64,000 nt of DNA. Origin: Bacteroidales bacterium (GTDB lineage Bacteria > Bacteroidota > Bacteroidia > Bacteroidales > PWNQ01). Within the stretch, counting starts at the first letter, position 1, and every line of letters starts with the position of its first letter. Position numbers and translations under genes: made by a program. The notes under the pieces were generated by a model. The model had not been told where the DNA came from and made no database searches. It was given only the letters and a program-made list of their open reading frames with translations. Shown one piece after another: positions 1,363 through 47,469 of the stretch. The stretch spans positions 18,531-82,530 of the forward strand of contig JAIPBW010000003.1 in the NCBI GenBank assembly GCA_021738505.1. Direction: 5' to 3'.

Positions 1363-1749
1363 TGCGATAACGTTGCCTTTCTATGAATCGTTTGTATCTT
1401 ATTAAAGTCTGTATAATAGATAAAATCAAATCCTGAAAGAAAGCCATACTCTATTGCGACCGCAGTAGTAATGTGTTTATATTTAAGGCTAATATCTGCG
1501 AACCTACATTTCATAATTTTCAGGATAAAATATTACCTTTGCTACAAATTAATATTTTTTCGGTTTTAAATGTAAGTTTTGTCCAAGTCAGTATATCTTG
1601 AAGCCGGCAGACGGCAACAAAAAATAGCTTTGAGCAACTACCCATTTCCGAAGAAAACAAGATTAACAAATAATATAAGGTAAAGTAAGGAACTAAATAT
1701 GGATTTGTTTGTTGGACAGATTAAGGATCGAAAATGAGGTGAGATAACA

Positions 1750-2349
1750 ATGGAAAAAATTAAACTGAACATCATAGGCATTTCAAACAGTCAGACACAA
1801 ACAGGAGCTTATGCCTTAATTTTAGGTGAAGAAGAAGGGCAACGCAGGCTACCGATCATCATTGGAGGTTTTGAAGCACAATCTATTGCTATAGAAATGG
1901 AAAACATGCACCCCAATCGCCCCTTAACTCATGATTTGTTTCGTAATTTTGCCCAGGCCTTTAATATCACTTTAACAGAGGTAATCATCAATAAATTTGA
2001 AGAAGGTGTTTTTTATGCACAATTGATTTGCCATAGTGATGAAGGCCCTCAGATTATTGACTCCCGGACATCAGATGCCATAGCACTGGCTGTACGCTTT
2101 AAATGTCCTGTTTATACTTATGAAGAAGTCATGAGTGCTGCCGGGATCCTGATCGAAGAAGAAGACAAGCAAGAAAATGAAAGTAAGGATCAGAACAATC
2201 TGGAAGATGTAGATGAAACTACCGAGTTCCAACGCTTTACTGTAGACGAGCTTAAACAACTACTCAACGAAGCGGTAGAAAAAGAAGAATTTGAGCGGGC
2301 TTCCCACCTACGGGATGAAATCCGTCGAAGAGAAGAACAGCAACAATAA
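1750..2349 (+). CDS. Bifunctional nuclease family protein (DUF151) with C-terminal UVR motif
   Basis: LPIIIGGFEAQSIAIEME...DSRTSDAIALAVRFKCPVY plus FERASHLRDEIRRREEQ UVR-like tail. Confidence 0.88.
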   Translation: MEKIKLNIIGISNSQTQTGAYALILGEEEGQRRLPIIIGGFEAQSIAIEMENMHPNRPLTHDLFRNFAQAFNITLTEVIINKFEEGVFYAQLICHSDEGPQIIDSRTSDAIALAVRFKCPVYTYEEVMSAAGILIEEEDKQENESKDQNNLEDVDETTEFQRFTVDELKQLLNEAVEKEEFERASHLRDEIRRREEQQQ

Positions 2350-2382
2350 TAAGCGTTTATCAGGAACTAAAGATTTTGCCTT

Positions 2383-4071
2383 ATGAGAAAAGTTATCGGG
2401 CTTGTAATAATGTTGATGCTGACTGTATTGTCTTCATCAACAGGTTTTGCTCAGGATAGCACCATGGAAGCTTCAAAGAAAAATCAGTTTGCAGCAGAGC
2501 AACCCGATAGCATGATTTCCCATACCAGGGATCAAAACATGGCTCAGGTTCCCGATACGATCGTTTCCGACACTAGTAATGTAGAAGGCGAGAATATTCT
2601 TTTAGATAACGAAGATGCCATGGGGTTTAGCTTTGAAAGTCTGTACCGCGGCATCTTAGGTATGATCGTCATTATCCTGATAGCTTTTATCTTTAGCTCC
2701 AACCGAAGGGCAATCAACTGGAAGGTTGTGTTTATCGGACTAAGCATACAGGTTGTATTAGCTATTGGAGTGTTGACTGTTCCCTTTGTACAGGGCTTTT
2801 TTGAATTTGTCAGTCGTGTCTTTGTCAAAATATTATCATTCACCAATGCCGGAAGTGAATTTCTGTTAGGAGACCTCATGGATAGCGATTCGTTTGGCTA
2901 CATTTTTGCCTTTCAGGTTCTACCAACCATCGTATTCTTTTCCGCTTTAACAAGTGTTTTATTTTATCTGGGTGTCATTCAAAAAATCGTATACGGCCTG
3001 GCCTGGCTAATGACAAAAGCTATGCGTCTTTCGGGTGCAGAAAGTCTATCCGTTGCAGGTAACATTTTTCTCGGACAAACGGAGTCACCGCTAATGGTGA
3101 AGGCGTATCTGGAAAAAATGACGAAAAGTGAAATATTATTAGTCATGCTGGGCGGCATGGCTACACTAGCCGGTGGAGTCCTGGCTGCATACATCAGTTT
3201 TTTAGGCAATGGAGACCCCGCACAGGAGTTACTTTTCGCTAAACACTTATTAGCTGCTTCTATTATGGCTGCTCCGGGGGCTGTTGTTGTGTCTAAAATT
3301 CTGGTTCCTCAAACAGAAAAAATTGATCAAGACGTGAGTGTTAGTCAGGATAAGTTGGGCAGTAACTTTTTGGAGTCGATGTCCAATGGAGCAACAGAAG
3401 GTTTCAAGCTGGCTGCGAACGTAGCTGCTATGCTTTTGGTTTTTGTTTCATTTATCGCCATGTTCAATTTTATTGTTGGACAAATGGGTAGCTGGTCCTT
3501 CCTGATTTTCACCTTTTTTGCTATTGGCACTTTTTTACTTCTATACTATATTAAAAGAACTTCTATAAAAGCTACTGCCGTATTGGGCTTACTCTTTGTA
3601 TTCATTGTTGTCTTTAACAATTTGTGGACAGAACCATTAGCGGAAGCAACAACCATTAATTCGTACGTAAAGAACTTAAGCAACGGGCAGTTTTCTCAGT
3701 TATCACTGGAATTTATTCTGGGATATACTTTTGCTCCTTTGATGTGGTTGCTTGGAGTGGCTACGGAAGATTTAACCCTGGTAGGACGTCTTTTGGGAGA
3801 AAAAATTATCATGAGTGAATTCATTGGTTATGTCAGCCTTTCAGAGTTAAAGTCTGCAGGAGCTTTCACGCATTACAAATCCATCATCATGGCTACATAT
3901 ATGCTGGCAGGTTTTGCCAACTTTGCTTCAATCGGAATACAAATCGGCGGTATAGGCTCACTGGCCCCGGGACGTAAAACCCTTTTATCCAAATTCGGCA
4001 TGAAAGCATTGCTTGGGGGAACACTAGCCTCATTGATGTCGGCAACGATCGTAGGTATGATCATGGGTTAG
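2383..4071 (+). CDS. NupC/CNT-family nucleoside transporter with N-terminal signal-like extension
   Basis: GQTESPLMVKAYLEKMTKSEILLVMLGGMATLAGGVLAAYI and GFANFASIGIQIGGIGSLAPGRK motifs of CNT transporters. Confidence 0.88.
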   Translation: MRKVIGLVIMLMLTVLSSSTGFAQDSTMEASKKNQFAAEQPDSMISHTRDQNMAQVPDTIVSDTSNVEGENILLDNEDAMGFSFESLYRGILGMIVIILIAFIFSSNRRAINWKVVFIGLSIQVVLAIGVLTVPFVQGFFEFVSRVFVKILSFTNAGSEFLLGDLMDSDSFGYIFAFQVLPTIVFFSALTSVLFYLGVIQKIVYGLAWLMTKAMRLSGAESLSVAGNIFLGQTESPLMVKAYLEKMTKSEILLVMLGGMATLAGGVLAAYISFLGNGDPAQELLFAKHLLAASIMAAPGAVVVSKILVPQTEKIDQDVSVSQDKLGSNFLESMSNGATEGFKLAANVAAMLLVFVSFIAMFNFIVGQMGSWSFLIFTFFAIGTFLLLYYIKRTSIKATAVLGLLFVFIVVFNNLWTEPLAEATTINSYVKNLSNGQFSQLSLEFILGYTFAPLMWLLGVATEDLTLVGRLLGEKIIMSEFIGYVSLSELKSAGAFTHYKSIIMATYMLAGFANFASIGIQIGGIGSLAPGRKTLLSKFGMKALLGGTLASLMSATIVGMIMG

Positions 4072-42242: not shown

Positions 42243-43088
42243 ATGACAAGCACAACAGAACTCCAAAAAATTGCAAATCAAGTCAGAAGAGATATCATCC
42301 GTATGGTTCATGCTGTAAATTCGGGCCACCCGGGAGGTTCACTGGGTTGCACAGATTTCATGACCGCCTTATATTTTGAAGTTATGGACCATGATCCTTC
42401 AAATTTTTCAATGGAAGGAAAAGGAGAAGATGTCTTTTACCTCTCCAATGGGCACATTTCACCGTTATGGTATAGTATCCTGGCAAGAAATGGCTATTTT
42501 GACATTTCGGAACTGAAAACGTTTCGCAAACTCAATTCCCGATTACAGGGCCATCCGGCAACAGAAGAAGGTCTTCCGGGAATACGAATCGCTTCTGGTT
42601 CTCTCGGCCAGGGAATGTCAGCGGCTTTAGGGCACGCATTAGCTAAAAAGCTGGATAGTGACAATAAGATTGTCTATAGCCTCCATGGTGACGGAGAATT
42701 ACAGGAAGGGCAAATTTGGGAAGCCGCTCTTTTTGGCGCTTCCAGAAAGATAGATAACATCATAGCCACGGTAGATTATAACGGTCAGCAAATTGACGGG
42801 CCCGTACAAAAGGTCAATGATCTTGGTGATTTAAAAGCCAAATGGGAAGCCTTTGGTTGGATAACACTGGAAATGAACGGACATGCCTTTGATGATATCC
42901 TAAAAACCATGGAAAAAGCAAAATCCATGACCGGTCAGGGAAAACCGGTTATTATTCTTATGCATACAGATATGGGCCATGGCGTGGATTATATGCAGGG
43001 AACACATGAGTGGCATGGCAAAGCTCCTGACGATGAACTGGCACAAAAAGCCCTGGAGCAATTACCGGAAACTTTAGGAGATTATTGA
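42243..43088 (+). CDS. Transketolase, N-terminal (TPP-binding) subunit
   Basis: VNSGHPGGSLGCTDFMTALYF; HGDGELQEGQIWEAALFG; TDMGHGVDYMQGTHEWHG; ATG 42243 preferred over TTG 42222. Confidence 0.95.
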   Translation: MTSTTELQKIANQVRRDIIRMVHAVNSGHPGGSLGCTDFMTALYFEVMDHDPSNFSMEGKGEDVFYLSNGHISPLWYSILARNGYFDISELKTFRKLNSRLQGHPATEEGLPGIRIASGSLGQGMSAALGHALAKKLDSDNKIVYSLHGDGELQEGQIWEAALFGASRKIDNIIATVDYNGQQIDGPVQKVNDLGDLKAKWEAFGWITLEMNGHAFDDILKTMEKAKSMTGQGKPVIILMHTDMGHGVDYMQGTHEWHGKAPDDELAQKALEQLPETLGDY

Positions 43089-43114
43089 TTAAAATCCATC
43101 AGAATATTCGCTTT

Positions 43115-44515
43115 ATGAGGTTCAAATGCTCGTTTATCATACTCATTCTTTTGCTGGCTTTAACAACCACCAAATCTGTTTTAGCCCAGCATCAAACAGC
43201 AGAAAGAAGAAACAATCAGTTAACACGTATTCTATTTGTTTTTGATGCCTCAAGAAGCATGTATGGAGAATGGGATGATGAGCCCAAAATAGATATAGCC
43301 AGACGGTTACTGACTGAAATGTTAGACAGTCTTCGCGGACGAAAAAACATGCAGTTGGGACTTCGCGTGTATGGACACCAACACCATTTCCCTCCCCAGC
43401 ATTGTGATGACACGAAACTGGAAATCCCTTTTGAATATGATAACATTGACCAGATCGTCCACAAACTCAAATCTATCGCTCCTAAGGGAACCACACCGAT
43501 AGCCCGTTCACTGGAAGAAGCTGCTGATGATTTTACAGACTGTGAAAATTGCCGCAATATTGTAATTCTGATTACCGACGGAATAGAAGAATGCGGTGGT
43601 GATCCTTGTGATGTTTCGCTTAAACTCCAGGAAAAGGGTGTTATTTTAAAACCTTTTGTTATCGGCATTGGAAAAGATTTCAAGGATGCTTTTGATTGTG
43701 TGGGAACGTATTTTGACACGAAAAATGAAGAGGAGTTCCGTACTGCGCTTAATGTCGCCATTGACAGAGCCCTTAATCCGACAACTGCTCAGATCAACCT
43801 GCTCGACATTAACGGAAACCCCACAGAGACAAACGTTAACATGTCTTTTTATAATAAAACTTCAGGCGAACTAAAATATAATCTCATTCATACACTTAAT
43901 GCTAAAGGCAACCCGGACACGCTTAAGTTAGACCCGATGATCACCTATAAAATTGATATTCATACGATCCCTCCCCTGACTATTGACTCATTCGGCTTAA
44001 CAGCCGGTAAGCACAATAAAATCGGTGTAGACGCTCCGCAAGGATATTTAAAACTGGTATTTGACGGCAAAAGCACCAAAAGCCATTACATCAATTGCAT
44101 TGTAAGAAAAGACGGAAAGATGAAAACTCTTAACGTTCAAAACATTGGCAAGAAAGAAAAATATCTTATCGGGAAATATGATTTGGAAGTTTTAACACTT
44201 CCACGGTTAAATATTGAAGATGTAGCCGTTAATCACAACCATACAACCACGATAGATATTCCCAGTCCCGGTATGGTCGTCATACAGATGGGGACTTCCG
44301 GCTATGGCAGTGTTTACAAATATCAGGATGATGGAAGCTTAAAATGGATCTATAATCTACCTGAAAAACAACAAAGAGAATCTTTATTTTTACTACCGGG
44401 CGATTACAAAGTAGTATTCCGCTCAAGGGCTACACACCGATCAAGACATACGCGCCAGGTCGATTTTGAAGTCAAATCAGGTAAAGCCCAAACCATTTCA
44501 ATATACAAGAATTAA
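43115..44515 (+). CDS. Exported von Willebrand factor A domain protein
   Basis: Signal peptide; RILFVFDASRSMYGEWDDEPKIDIARRLL (MIDAS DxSxS); APKGTTPIARSLEEAA; VILITDGIEECGGD. Confidence 0.9.
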   Translation: MRFKCSFIILILLLALTTTKSVLAQHQTAERRNNQLTRILFVFDASRSMYGEWDDEPKIDIARRLLTEMLDSLRGRKNMQLGLRVYGHQHHFPPQHCDDTKLEIPFEYDNIDQIVHKLKSIAPKGTTPIARSLEEAADDFTDCENCRNIVILITDGIEECGGDPCDVSLKLQEKGVILKPFVIGIGKDFKDAFDCVGTYFDTKNEEEFRTALNVAIDRALNPTTAQINLLDINGNPTETNVNMSFYNKTSGELKYNLIHTLNAKGNPDTLKLDPMITYKIDIHTIPPLTIDSFGLTAGKHNKIGVDAPQGYLKLVFDGKSTKSHYINCIVRKDGKMKTLNVQNIGKKEKYLIGKYDLEVLTLPRLNIEDVAVNHNHTTTIDIPSPGMVVIQMGTSGYGSVYKYQDDGSLKWIYNLPEKQQRESLFLLPGDYKVVFRSRATHRSRHTRQVDFEVKSGKAQTISIYKN

Positions 44516-44528
44516 AAAATCAAAAATC

Positions 44529-45482
44529 ATGAACACATATAAAGTAAGAGACCATAAAGACACGCGCTCCGGTTATGGAGCAGCATTACTCGAAATTGCC
44601 AAAGATAACGATCAGATTGTCGGTTTATGTGCAGACCTGACAGGTTCGCTCAAAATGGGCGACTTTGCGAAAGCTTATCCGGAACGATTTTTCCAATCCG
44701 GAATATCTGAGGCTAATATGATGGGCGTTGCTGCCGGAATGGCAACAGCAGGAAAAATTCCTTTTCCATCGACTTTTGCTAATTTTGGCTCAGGCCGTGT
44801 TTACGATCAAATTCGCCAATCTATCGCTTACAGTAATAAGAACGTTAAAATTTGTGTGTCTCATGCGGGACTTACATTAGGAGAAGACGGAGCTACTCAC
44901 CAAATGCTGGAAGATCTTGGCATGATGAAAATGCTTCCCAACATGACGGTTATCAATCCATGCGATTATACGCAAACCATGCAGGCCACCAAAGCTGCCG
45001 CCGAGCATTACGGACCCGTATATTTACGCTTTGGCCGACCCAAAATGCCGGTCTTTATACCCGAAGATATGCCATTTAAAATTGGGGAAGCAATTAAACT
45101 TACGCAAGGAAATGATGTCACTATTATTGCAACCGGTCATTTAGTTTGGCCGGCAATTCAGGCAGAACAACGATTAAAAGAAAAAGGCATATCTGCCGAA
45201 GTTATTAATATCCATACAATTAAACCACTTGACACAAAAGCTATAGTGGAGTCAGTAAAAAAAACACATTGTGTGGTAACAGCAGAAGAACATATGCTGA
45301 ATGGAGGATTAGGTGAAAGTGTCGCTCATACATTAGCAAAAAATTATCCGGCACCCATGGAAATGATTGGGGTAGATGACACTTTTGGTGAAAGTGGTAA
45401 GCCGGATGAATTAATGGAAAAATATGGACTGACAGATAAAAATATTGTTGAGGCGGCCCTGAAAGTTTTCCATCGCAAGTAA
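44529..45482 (+). CDS. Transketolase, C-terminal subunit
   Basis: IVGLCADLTGSLKMGDFAKAYPERFFQSGISEANMMGVAAGMATAGKIPFPSTFANF; ATG at 44529 preferred. Confidence 0.95.
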   Translation: MNTYKVRDHKDTRSGYGAALLEIAKDNDQIVGLCADLTGSLKMGDFAKAYPERFFQSGISEANMMGVAAGMATAGKIPFPSTFANFGSGRVYDQIRQSIAYSNKNVKICVSHAGLTLGEDGATHQMLEDLGMMKMLPNMTVINPCDYTQTMQATKAAAEHYGPVYLRFGRPKMPVFIPEDMPFKIGEAIKLTQGNDVTIIATGHLVWPAIQAEQRLKEKGISAEVINIHTIKPLDTKAIVESVKKTHCVVTAEEHMLNGGLGESVAHTLAKNYPAPMEMIGVDDTFGESGKPDELMEKYGLTDKNIVEAALKVFHRK

Positions 45483-45492
45483 TGATAAATGA

Positions 45493-46041
45493 ATGCCATC
45501 ATACTCAGATAACGAGATACTCGAATTATTCAATCAACCGGAAAAACGCTCAAAAGCGTTTGAAATGCTGGTAAACAAATACCAACAAAGGGTATATTGG
45601 ATAATCCGTCGTATGCTTCTCAACCATGAAGATACGAACGATGTGATGCAGGAGACTTTTATCAAAATCTGGCAAAACATTGCAAATTTCAGACAACAAT
45701 CCGGGCTCTATGCCTGGATATATCGTATTGCTATTAACGAAGTGTACACATTTTTCCGAAAGAAAAAACGCCTTCGCAACCTACCTACTACCGAATTAAA
45801 AGAGGAAATGCTTCAGTCATTACAGTGTGACCCATGGTTTGATGGAAATCAAGCACAACTCAAGCTGCAGGAAGCTATCCTTGCATTACCCAAAAAACAA
45901 CAAATGGTTTTTAATATGCGATATTTTGAAGAAATCCCGTATGCCGAAATGTCCAAAATATTAGATACTTCAAAGGGATCTTTAAAAGCATCATATCACT
46001 GGGCTGTTAAAAAAATAGAAGAAAACTTAAAAGACAATTAA
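45493..46041 (+). CDS. ECF-type RNA polymerase sigma factor
   Basis: HEDTNDVMQETFIKIWQNIANFRQQSGLYAWIYRIAINE; LPKKQQMVFNMRYFEEIPYAEMSKILDTSKGSLKASYHWAVKKIEE. Confidence 0.95.
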   Translation: MPSYSDNEILELFNQPEKRSKAFEMLVNKYQQRVYWIIRRMLLNHEDTNDVMQETFIKIWQNIANFRQQSGLYAWIYRIAINEVYTFFRKKKRLRNLPTTELKEEMLQSLQCDPWFDGNQAQLKLQEAILALPKKQQMVFNMRYFEEIPYAEMSKILDTSKGSLKASYHWAVKKIEENLKDN

Positions 46042-46086
46042 ACCTAAAATCAAAAAACGTATCCTATTCACAGCATAAGATAATTC

Positions 46087-47469
46087 ATGGTCAAAAAATC
46101 AAAACATACAAACAAAGAACCTGACACAAGCAGCATCGATCGTCATGCAAAAGGAGATAGCTTTAAAACTCCCGAGAACTATTTTGACGAGTTTTCGTCA
46201 AATATCGTCAGCATGACAAAAGATATGCCTGTTAAGCCAGGCAATCCCCCGGGTTATCAAAAGCTGGTCTCCCGCCCCTGGGCGATGGTTGCCGCTGCGG
46301 CTGCAATTATTGGAATAGTTCTTATGTCTGTGTTTTATTTTACGAATAATTCTCAACAACAACCCGATAATATTCATCCTGATCGTGGATTAGTTCAAAC
46401 AGATACGAACGAAGTCCGGCACCGGCAAGAAACAGATGATTCTTCCCGTCAGGTTATTGCAGAAAAAAGCAAAAAAGCAACAAAAGAGCTATCGGACAAA
46501 GATCCGGCAAAAGCCAAACAAGAAAGGCCGGAAAAAGCACAGAAAGAGAACCAGCATGCTGAAGAAACCGCCATTGCTCAAAAAGCAAAAGAAGACAAAC
46601 AAATAAACGAGCAAGAAAATAAAGAAAAAAAATATCCCACACAAGAACCAGAACCACAGTTTGCCGAAAACCAAAATCAAACAGGCAGGCAAAACCATTC
46701 AGGGGGTATAAGCCAGCAAGGTTCTGGTACCGGTAAGACTTCAAATGAAGAGGTTGCTATTGCATCAGAGCAAATATCAAAAGAATTTGATTTTTATAAT
46801 GACACATGCATCTCTTCCCCTTCCTGGTTTTATCTACCTTCTGTTCCTAAGGGGTATAAAATTAAATGGAGAGGTAAAGCTAATAAAGATAGTCTTCTTA
46901 TTGAGGAGAGCGGTTTATATACAGCCATATTAACAAATAGTGACAATGATACAATTTCAACTCCGGAGTTTGAAGTTCGTTATCTTCCGGAGCCTGATGT
47001 GAAATTACGCCGGCAATATAAAGTATGCATAAATAAAAACCTGAAATTGGATCCCGGATTTTATGATGAGAAATATGACTTTATGTGGTCTGACGGCGTG
47101 GAAAGCCCTGTGAATTTTGTCTCGGAGATTTCTGCATCCACAAAACATTACTCCCTGGAAATAACAGGTTGTAAAACATATGAGTATCAAACAATCGTCA
47201 TCTTTGAATCCTGTGATCTTACAATACCCAATGTAATCACCCCAAACGGTGACGGCATGAATGATTACTTTAAAATTGAAGGCCTTGAAAACTATCCCGG
47301 TAGCAAGCTCATTATCTTAGACCGCAATGGAAAAGAACTTTTCGTTGACGAAAATTATCAAAATGATTTTGATGGCGGCAATCTGCCGCAAGGCTCCTAT
47401 TTTTACATCCTACAAGTCAATGATAAACATCAGACAACCAAAAAAGGAAACCTGAATATTATCTTCTAA
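46087..47469 (+). CDS. Single-pass membrane protein: anti-sigma-like N-terminus, KE-rich linker, C-terminal gliding/T9SS type-B (CHU_C-like) domain
   Basis: FKTPENYFDEF near N-terminus; TM PWAMVAAAAAIIGIVLMSVFYF; C-terminus IPNVITPNGDGMNDYFKIEGLENYPGSKLIILDRNGKELFV...GSYFYILQV. Confidence 0.82.
   Translation: MVKKSKHTNKEPDTSSIDRHAKGDSFKTPENYFDEFSSNIVSMTKDMPVKPGNPPGYQKLVSRPWAMVAAAAAIIGIVLMSVFYFTNNSQQQPDNIHPDRGLVQTDTNEVRHRQETDDSSRQVIAEKSKKATKELSDKDPAKAKQERPEKAQKENQHAEETAIAQKAKEDKQINEQENKEKKYPTQEPEPQFAENQNQTGRQNHSGGISQQGSGTGKTSNEEVAIASEQISKEFDFYNDTCISSPSWFYLPSVPKGYKIKWRGKANKDSLLIEESGLYTAILTNSDNDTISTPEFEVRYLPEPDVKLRRQYKVCINKNLKLDPGFYDEKYDFMWSDGVESPVNFVSEISASTKHYSLEITGCKTYEYQTIVIFESCDLTIPNVITPNGDGMNDYFKIEGLENYPGSKLIILDRNGKELFVDENYQNDFDGGNLPQGSYFYILQVNDKHQTTKKGNLNIIF

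Follow-up and report, generated by a model that had tools for sequence, protein, structure and literature searches.

A putative membrane anti-sigma factor with a type B T9SS C-terminal domain is encoded beside an ECF sigma factor in Bacteroidales

Introduction

In Bacteroides thetaiotaomicron the protein Dma2, which is encoded beside an ECF21 sigma factor, consists of an anti-sigma domain, a transmembrane segment (TM), a disordered tether and a beta-barrel, and the consequences of Dma2 loss depend on its sigma factor Das2 (PMC13088901). In FecI-FecR cell-surface signalling the state of the outer membrane is passed to an ECF sigma factor through an anti-sigma factor in the inner membrane. In Porphyromonas gingivalis a protein with a T9SS C-terminal domain (CTD), the surface protein PorA, stands upstream of an ECF sigma pathway and acts through the two-component system PorXY on SigP, but the signal feeding PorXY-SigP is unknown (PMC7712824), and how the state of the T9SS reaches transcription is an open question. 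Type B cargo of the T9SS (TIGR04131/PF13585; e.g. SprB, PG1035 and GhpA) carries a Sec signal peptide and a CTD preceded by Ig-like domains. In the outer membrane, barrels of the PorP/SprF kind bind the CTDs of type B (PMC9143113). A single shuttle can serve several 'orphan' CTDs of type B, and secretion requires all five CTD motifs (PMC12618676). T9SS genes of Flavobacterium psychrophilum are covered, along with a sigma/anti-sigma pair, by a sigma-ECF promoter motif (PMC9723704).

Here we describe a locus in which an ECF sigma factor adjoins a 460-aa protein with the same order of parts as Dma: an N-terminal, predicted sigma-binding part, a TM, a disordered tether and a C-terminal module that would be directed to the outer membrane. 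The locus lies in the window, i.e. the whole 64,000-nt stretch of DNA analysed, from a Bacteroidales bacterium (contig JAIPBW010000003.1, assembly GCA_021738505.1). Whereas Dma ends in a beta-barrel and combines an N-terminus of the PSxxVWxxI type with a Das/ECF21 sigma factor, the window protein ends in Ig-like domains and a type B T9SS CTD, and its N-terminus is of the YF type and belongs with a different sigma group. It shares the CTD and the preceding Ig-like domains with type B cargo, but has an internal TM and about 62 cytoplasmic residues in place of the Sec signal peptide, and in this respect breaks the rule that CTD proteins possess a signal peptide and are exported from the cell. Unlike in the PorA pathway, the CTD is placed on the sigma factor's own membrane partner, which would give a direct route from the T9SS to transcription, and unlike in FecI-FecR signalling there is neither a FecR/STN domain in the 460-aa protein (no Pfam match) nor a TonB receptor gene adjoining the pair.

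A full-text search of the open-access literature returned no paper in which an anti-sigma factor was paired with a type B sorting or gliding C-terminal domain. Likewise, open-access papers on anti-sigma factors and the T9SS contained no CTD-bearing anti-sigma factor, the nearest case being PorA (PMC7712824). An earlier note on this DNA did not name the close functional precedent of Dma1/Dma2 (PMC13088901).

Results

The sigma factor gene and its neighbours

The sigma factor gene (45493..46041, + strand) encodes 182 aa with sigma-2 and sigma-4 regions only (Pfam PF04542 Sigma70_r2, 3.6e-18; PF08281 Sigma70_r4_2, 6e-12), i.e. the composition and the size (about 180 aa) of an ECF sigma factor, and is followed on the same strand after 45 bp by the 460-aa ORF (46087..47469, +), as the earlier note had read. 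Orthologues of the sigma factor that adjoin the same kind of partner were 41-70% identical. Upstream, a gene for the C-terminal half of a transketolase (44466..45482, +) is separated from the sigma start by 10 bp. Comparison with homologues at related loci showed it to be a conserved neighbour, with the sigma gene after the transketolase C-terminal gene at 13 of the 15 related CTD loci and a transketolase gene nearby at at least 36 of 80 loci where a related sigma factor has a short partner (see below). Upstream of the pair, the two halves of the transketolase flank a gene for a VWA-domain protein with a signal peptide (43085-44515), and this arrangement was seen in three of the four families with CTD-bearing pairs (L159, L215, L216 and L218).

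Domain structure of the 460-aa protein

The protein was assigned as an anti-sigma-like protein anchored in the inner membrane and carrying a type B T9SS CTD on the basis of domain matches, an AF2 model (13 aligned homologues) and the 15 complete loci described below. Residues 1-62 (46087..46272, +) form the predicted cytoplasmic sigma-binding segment, in which the AF2 model placed helices at residues 15-22 and 32-45. The motif SFKTPENYF is located at residues 25-33 (46159..46185, +), and P29, Y32 and F33 were invariant in two alignments of homologues. A single TM helix follows at residues 64-87 (46276..46347, +; AF2 model and hydropathy) and the flanking charges indicated an N-in topology. No signal peptide was found at the N-terminus in the AF2 model or by hydropathy, the sole hydrophobic stretch beginning at residue 64. 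Residues 89-231 (46351..46779, +) make up a disordered, periplasmic tether (pLDDT <50) that consists to 69% of K/E/Q/N/S/T/P/D. Residues 232-376 (46780..47214, +) were modelled as a pair of Ig-like domains spanning about residues 238-300 and 301-376, gave Foldseek matches to Ig-like domains and to GhpA, and hold four Cys (241, 314, 362 and 376), three of which were invariant in 13 homologues. The type B CTD occupies residues 377-460 (47215..47466, +; pLDDT about 92) and was detected both by PF13585 CHU_C (residues 379-457, 4.1e-24, 84.9 bits, cut-off 27) and by TIGR04131 (49.9 bits, cut-off 35). The only sequence match in the PDB was to the C-terminal end of the giant Aureispira surface protein GhpA (9flp; profile E 1.5e-48).

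These results agree with the earlier note in that it had described a protein lacking an N-terminal signal peptide, with one TM at about residues 65-86, a ~150-aa K/E/Q-rich linker and an ~84-aa gliding/type B T9SS CTD; its Cys-containing beta domain does contain Cys, but is really two Ig-like domains. Neither Pfam nor the AF2 model showed a barrel at the C-terminus, where CHU_C is found instead. The HxxxCxxC zinc anti-sigma motif of the RsiW/ChrR type is absent, residues 1-62 being free of Cys, and neither Pfam nor NCBIfam contained an anti-sigma model for this type of N-terminus or for that of the second class described below.

Relationship of the N-terminus to short sigma partners

The group to which the window sigma factor belongs is widespread in Bacteroidota, mostly with one or two members per genome in the order, and its usual partner is a protein with at least one NPFxVPxxYF segment and a TM, the tail of which measures 39-109 aa. 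A profile of this short family matched the window N-terminus at 6.8e-15, as compared to 0.68 or worse for shuffled versions, and matched each of the 13 aligned homologues with a CTD at no worse than 2.2e-9. The impression that FKTPENYFDEF has the look of proteins encoded next to ECF sigma factors was thereby borne out. The short partners (L046-L155) have in common with the window protein the NPFxVPxxYF segment and the TM (E down to 1e-17), the sigma group and the transketolase-linked locus, but they stop 39-109 aa after the TM, whereas the window protein runs about 375 aa further with a tether, Ig-like domains and a CTD that the short partners lack. Given the N-terminal homology and the nearby transketolase gene, the window locus looks like a short-partner locus that was extended with a CTD in some families.

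The NPFxVPxxYF segment occurs more than once in a number of short partners (L056, L049, L055, L065, L076 and others), with as many as seven or eight copies ahead of the TM in L056, as if a single anti-sigma factor were able to bind several sigma molecules. Many of the short-partner pairs (L053, L068, L071, L093-L098, L103 and L110) are followed by a small gene of Spy/CpxP-like type (FWPVYNEY), which suggests an envelope-stress role for the ancestral sigma factor.

Conservation of the CTD-bearing pair

Complete pairs of the sigma factor and a CTD-bearing partner were found at 15 loci in four families of the order: in three genomes of family f1, at seven loci in f50 (and an additional one cut by a contig end), at four in f71 and at one in f86 (with a second one that is cut). 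The mean identity to the window protein was 53% for the CTD, 27% for the Ig-like part, 26% for the cytoplasmic part and 13% for the tether, and the CTD, having the highest regional identity, is thus the part most held by selection. Despite its low identity the tether was held at a length of 109-169 aa among the homologues. In the f86 homologue from genome G087 the motif is located upstream of the first ATG, and a non-ATG start is therefore likely. In one homologue (G266, L216, 526-1716 (-)) the CTD is degenerate and no longer contains NGDGxND.

In a class-wide comparison with 395 genomes, mostly of other orders, no full-length relative with both the YF-type N-terminus and the CTD was present among the matches listed beyond the window's own, and this form therefore appears to be restricted to some families of the order. 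The sigma tree fits one or several origins of the YF-type CTD form, a single clade not being rejected (p-AU 0.22). In L216, L330 and L344 the layout is otherwise retained, but the CTD lacks its PNxxTPNGDGxND start, possibly reflecting a loss of T9SS recognition.

Predicted complex of the sigma factor and its partner

In the window and in 23 relatives the sigma factor and its partner are encoded in the same frame, and each such pair can therefore be read as a single chain. As input for the co-fold the stop codons were read as glycine, giving natural single-chain sigma-partner pairs. The co-fold, which had been proposed as a check in the earlier note, was obtained as one predicted model (pTM 0.78, mean pLDDT 87.5), in which the N-terminal segment of the partner docks on the sigma factor. 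Residues 13-52 of the anti-sigma protein had a pLDDT of 89-96 in the co-fold and 52-65 without the sigma factor, the alignments used for the two folds being different. Just two residues were assigned to strands, F116 of the sigma factor and F26 of the anti-sigma protein, which would place a bridge directly before TPENYF. The top PDB matches of the co-fold were the SigW-RsiW, RpoE-NepR and CnrH-CnrY complexes, whereas RNAP-bound ECF sigma factors could be superposed on it only at 21-27 Å rmsd. Given that the predicted complex resembles sigma factors held by anti-sigma factors and not those bound to RNAP, the model supports a docking of the partner on the sigma factor in a closed, inhibited form.

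A second class of CTD-bearing partners in the same genome

The same genome contains a second pair (L006, G000:C77), in which a partner with a type B CTD (1501-2571 (-)) follows 9 bp after an ECF sigma factor (from 2580 (-)) and has the N-terminus PPDHVWNNI, unlike that of the window protein. Relatives of L006 with a sigma gene directly upstream were found in ten families, and together with an order-wide survey of the L006 sigma group they make up 56 pairs that share this kind of N-terminus. A type B CTD forms the end of 24 of these (17 families), a CTD-like domain that of 2 and what looks like an outer-membrane barrel that of 30, the barrel label being based on the look of the ends and on Pfam OMP_b-brl matches in 4 of the 7 that were scanned. 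Well-supported branches of the sigma tree of this group imply at least two changes between barrel-like and CTD ends. The second class (L257-L274, L286, L333 and others) shares with Dma an N-terminus of the PSxxVWxxI type but has a CTD, and both its N-terminus and its sigma group look Dma-like, as judged from the description in PMC13088901. The layout of a CTD on a putative anti-sigma protein is therefore seen in two families that are unrelated to each other.

Presence of T9SS genes in the carriers

The survey of the pair against T9SS genes, also suggested in the earlier note, showed SprA above cut-off in 27 of the 29 carriers of either class, the remaining two being G395 (71% complete) and G252 (94% complete). 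PorP/SprF proteins were found in all 13 carriers examined, with seven matches in the window genome, and PorV-family proteins were above cut-off in 4 of 5 carriers. The window genome has 13 type B CTD genes above cut-off, and the best identity between the window CTD and the cargo CTDs of the same genome was 49%, which suggests that the window CTD may share a shuttle with the closest cargo CTD. No PorP/SprF gene adjoins the window anti-sigma gene, and its CTD is an orphan in the sense of PMC12618676. Genome G252 (L222) was seen to carry a CTD-bearing pair and PorP/SprF genes in addition to having no SprA match above cut-off, and its missing SprA is either an assembly gap or a real loss.

Discussion

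We propose, with moderate confidence, that the pair consists of an ECF sigma factor and an anti-sigma factor spanning both membranes, in which the T9SS CTD serves as a hook at the outer membrane and a changed hold on this hook frees the sigma factor. The anti-sigma protein would grip the sigma factor at the inner membrane through residues about 13-52, including the motif SFKTPENYF, cross the inner membrane once and span the periplasm with its tether and Ig-like domains, the tether of about 145 aa being long enough that it should reach the outer membrane. For the events at the outer membrane, i.e. the engagement of the CTD, the signal and its sign and a proteolytic release, we infer the following. 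The CTD would be hooked to the outer membrane, probably by being passed on to a shuttle of the PorP/SprF type or by being retained at the SprA translocon, and when the T9SS is busy, blocked or missing, or the outer membrane is disturbed, the hold on it would change. The anti-sigma protein might then be altered or degraded, with a change in its stability, and the sigma factor freed. Such an arrangement could be a route by which these bacteria sense the condition of the T9SS or of their outer membrane. The earlier note had suggested that the CTD tethered to the inner membrane beside the sigma factor could act as a sensor or decoy that reports T9SS load or the state of the cell surface. The structural half of this suggestion is supported by the N-terminal family match, the co-fold and the conserved CTD, and the sensing half would be in keeping with Dma as a precedent and with the finding of SprA and PorP/SprF in nearly all carriers.

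The protein could also be a real anti-sigma factor whose CTD-like domain is merely a periplasmic module, sensing a ligand, peptidoglycan or thiols and never engaging the T9SS or the outer membrane. The conserved Cys in the Ig-like domains, the short relatives that manage with a tail of 39-109 aa in place of a long periplasmic part and the degenerate CTD of L216 are all compatible with such a role, but a periplasmic sensor would not readily explain why the CTD is better conserved than the Ig-like part (53% versus 27%), why the tether is retained at 109-169 aa when its sequence is not, why the same CTD is found on a second, unrelated class of anti-sigma proteins whose other type of end looks like an outer-membrane barrel, or why nearly all carriers have T9SS genes. 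We regard this explanation as unlikely, though it is the strongest of the alternatives. Slightly less probable is a role unrelated to T9SS load, in which the partner activates the sigma factor or the pair is part of a response to outer-membrane stress. The Spy/CpxP-like gene that often follows the short-partner pairs hints at envelope stress, but the closed, anti-sigma-bound conformation of the co-fold argues against activation and the conservation of the CTD points to T9SS components.

Membrane anti-sigma factors are usually inactivated by regulated proteolysis, and the protein might accordingly be cleaved at the inner membrane or close to it and its CTD piece exported to the surface as an ordinary T9SS product, with the export serving for disposal or signalling. 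The tether, being disordered, would offer an easy target for cleavage and the CTD is complete; however, the tether (13% identity) holds no conserved cleavage motif and the 460-aa protein has no signal peptide, and we consider this course of events improbable. Given that the genome has 13 type B CTD genes above cut-off, an ordinary T9SS cargo gene might also by chance be located downstream of a sigma gene. This explanation was rejected as extremely improbable, since the protein lacks a signal peptide, its N-terminus is homologous to sigma partners and the pair is conserved in four families.

If the hook reading of the window protein is correct, the idea derived from Dma would widen from one barrel family to a modular class with an exchangeable outer-membrane hook. 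In the L006 sigma group the putative outer-membrane module is exchangeable. Across L317-L356 the N-terminus and the TM were seen to be constant, and the end is either a barrel-like domain or a type B CTD.
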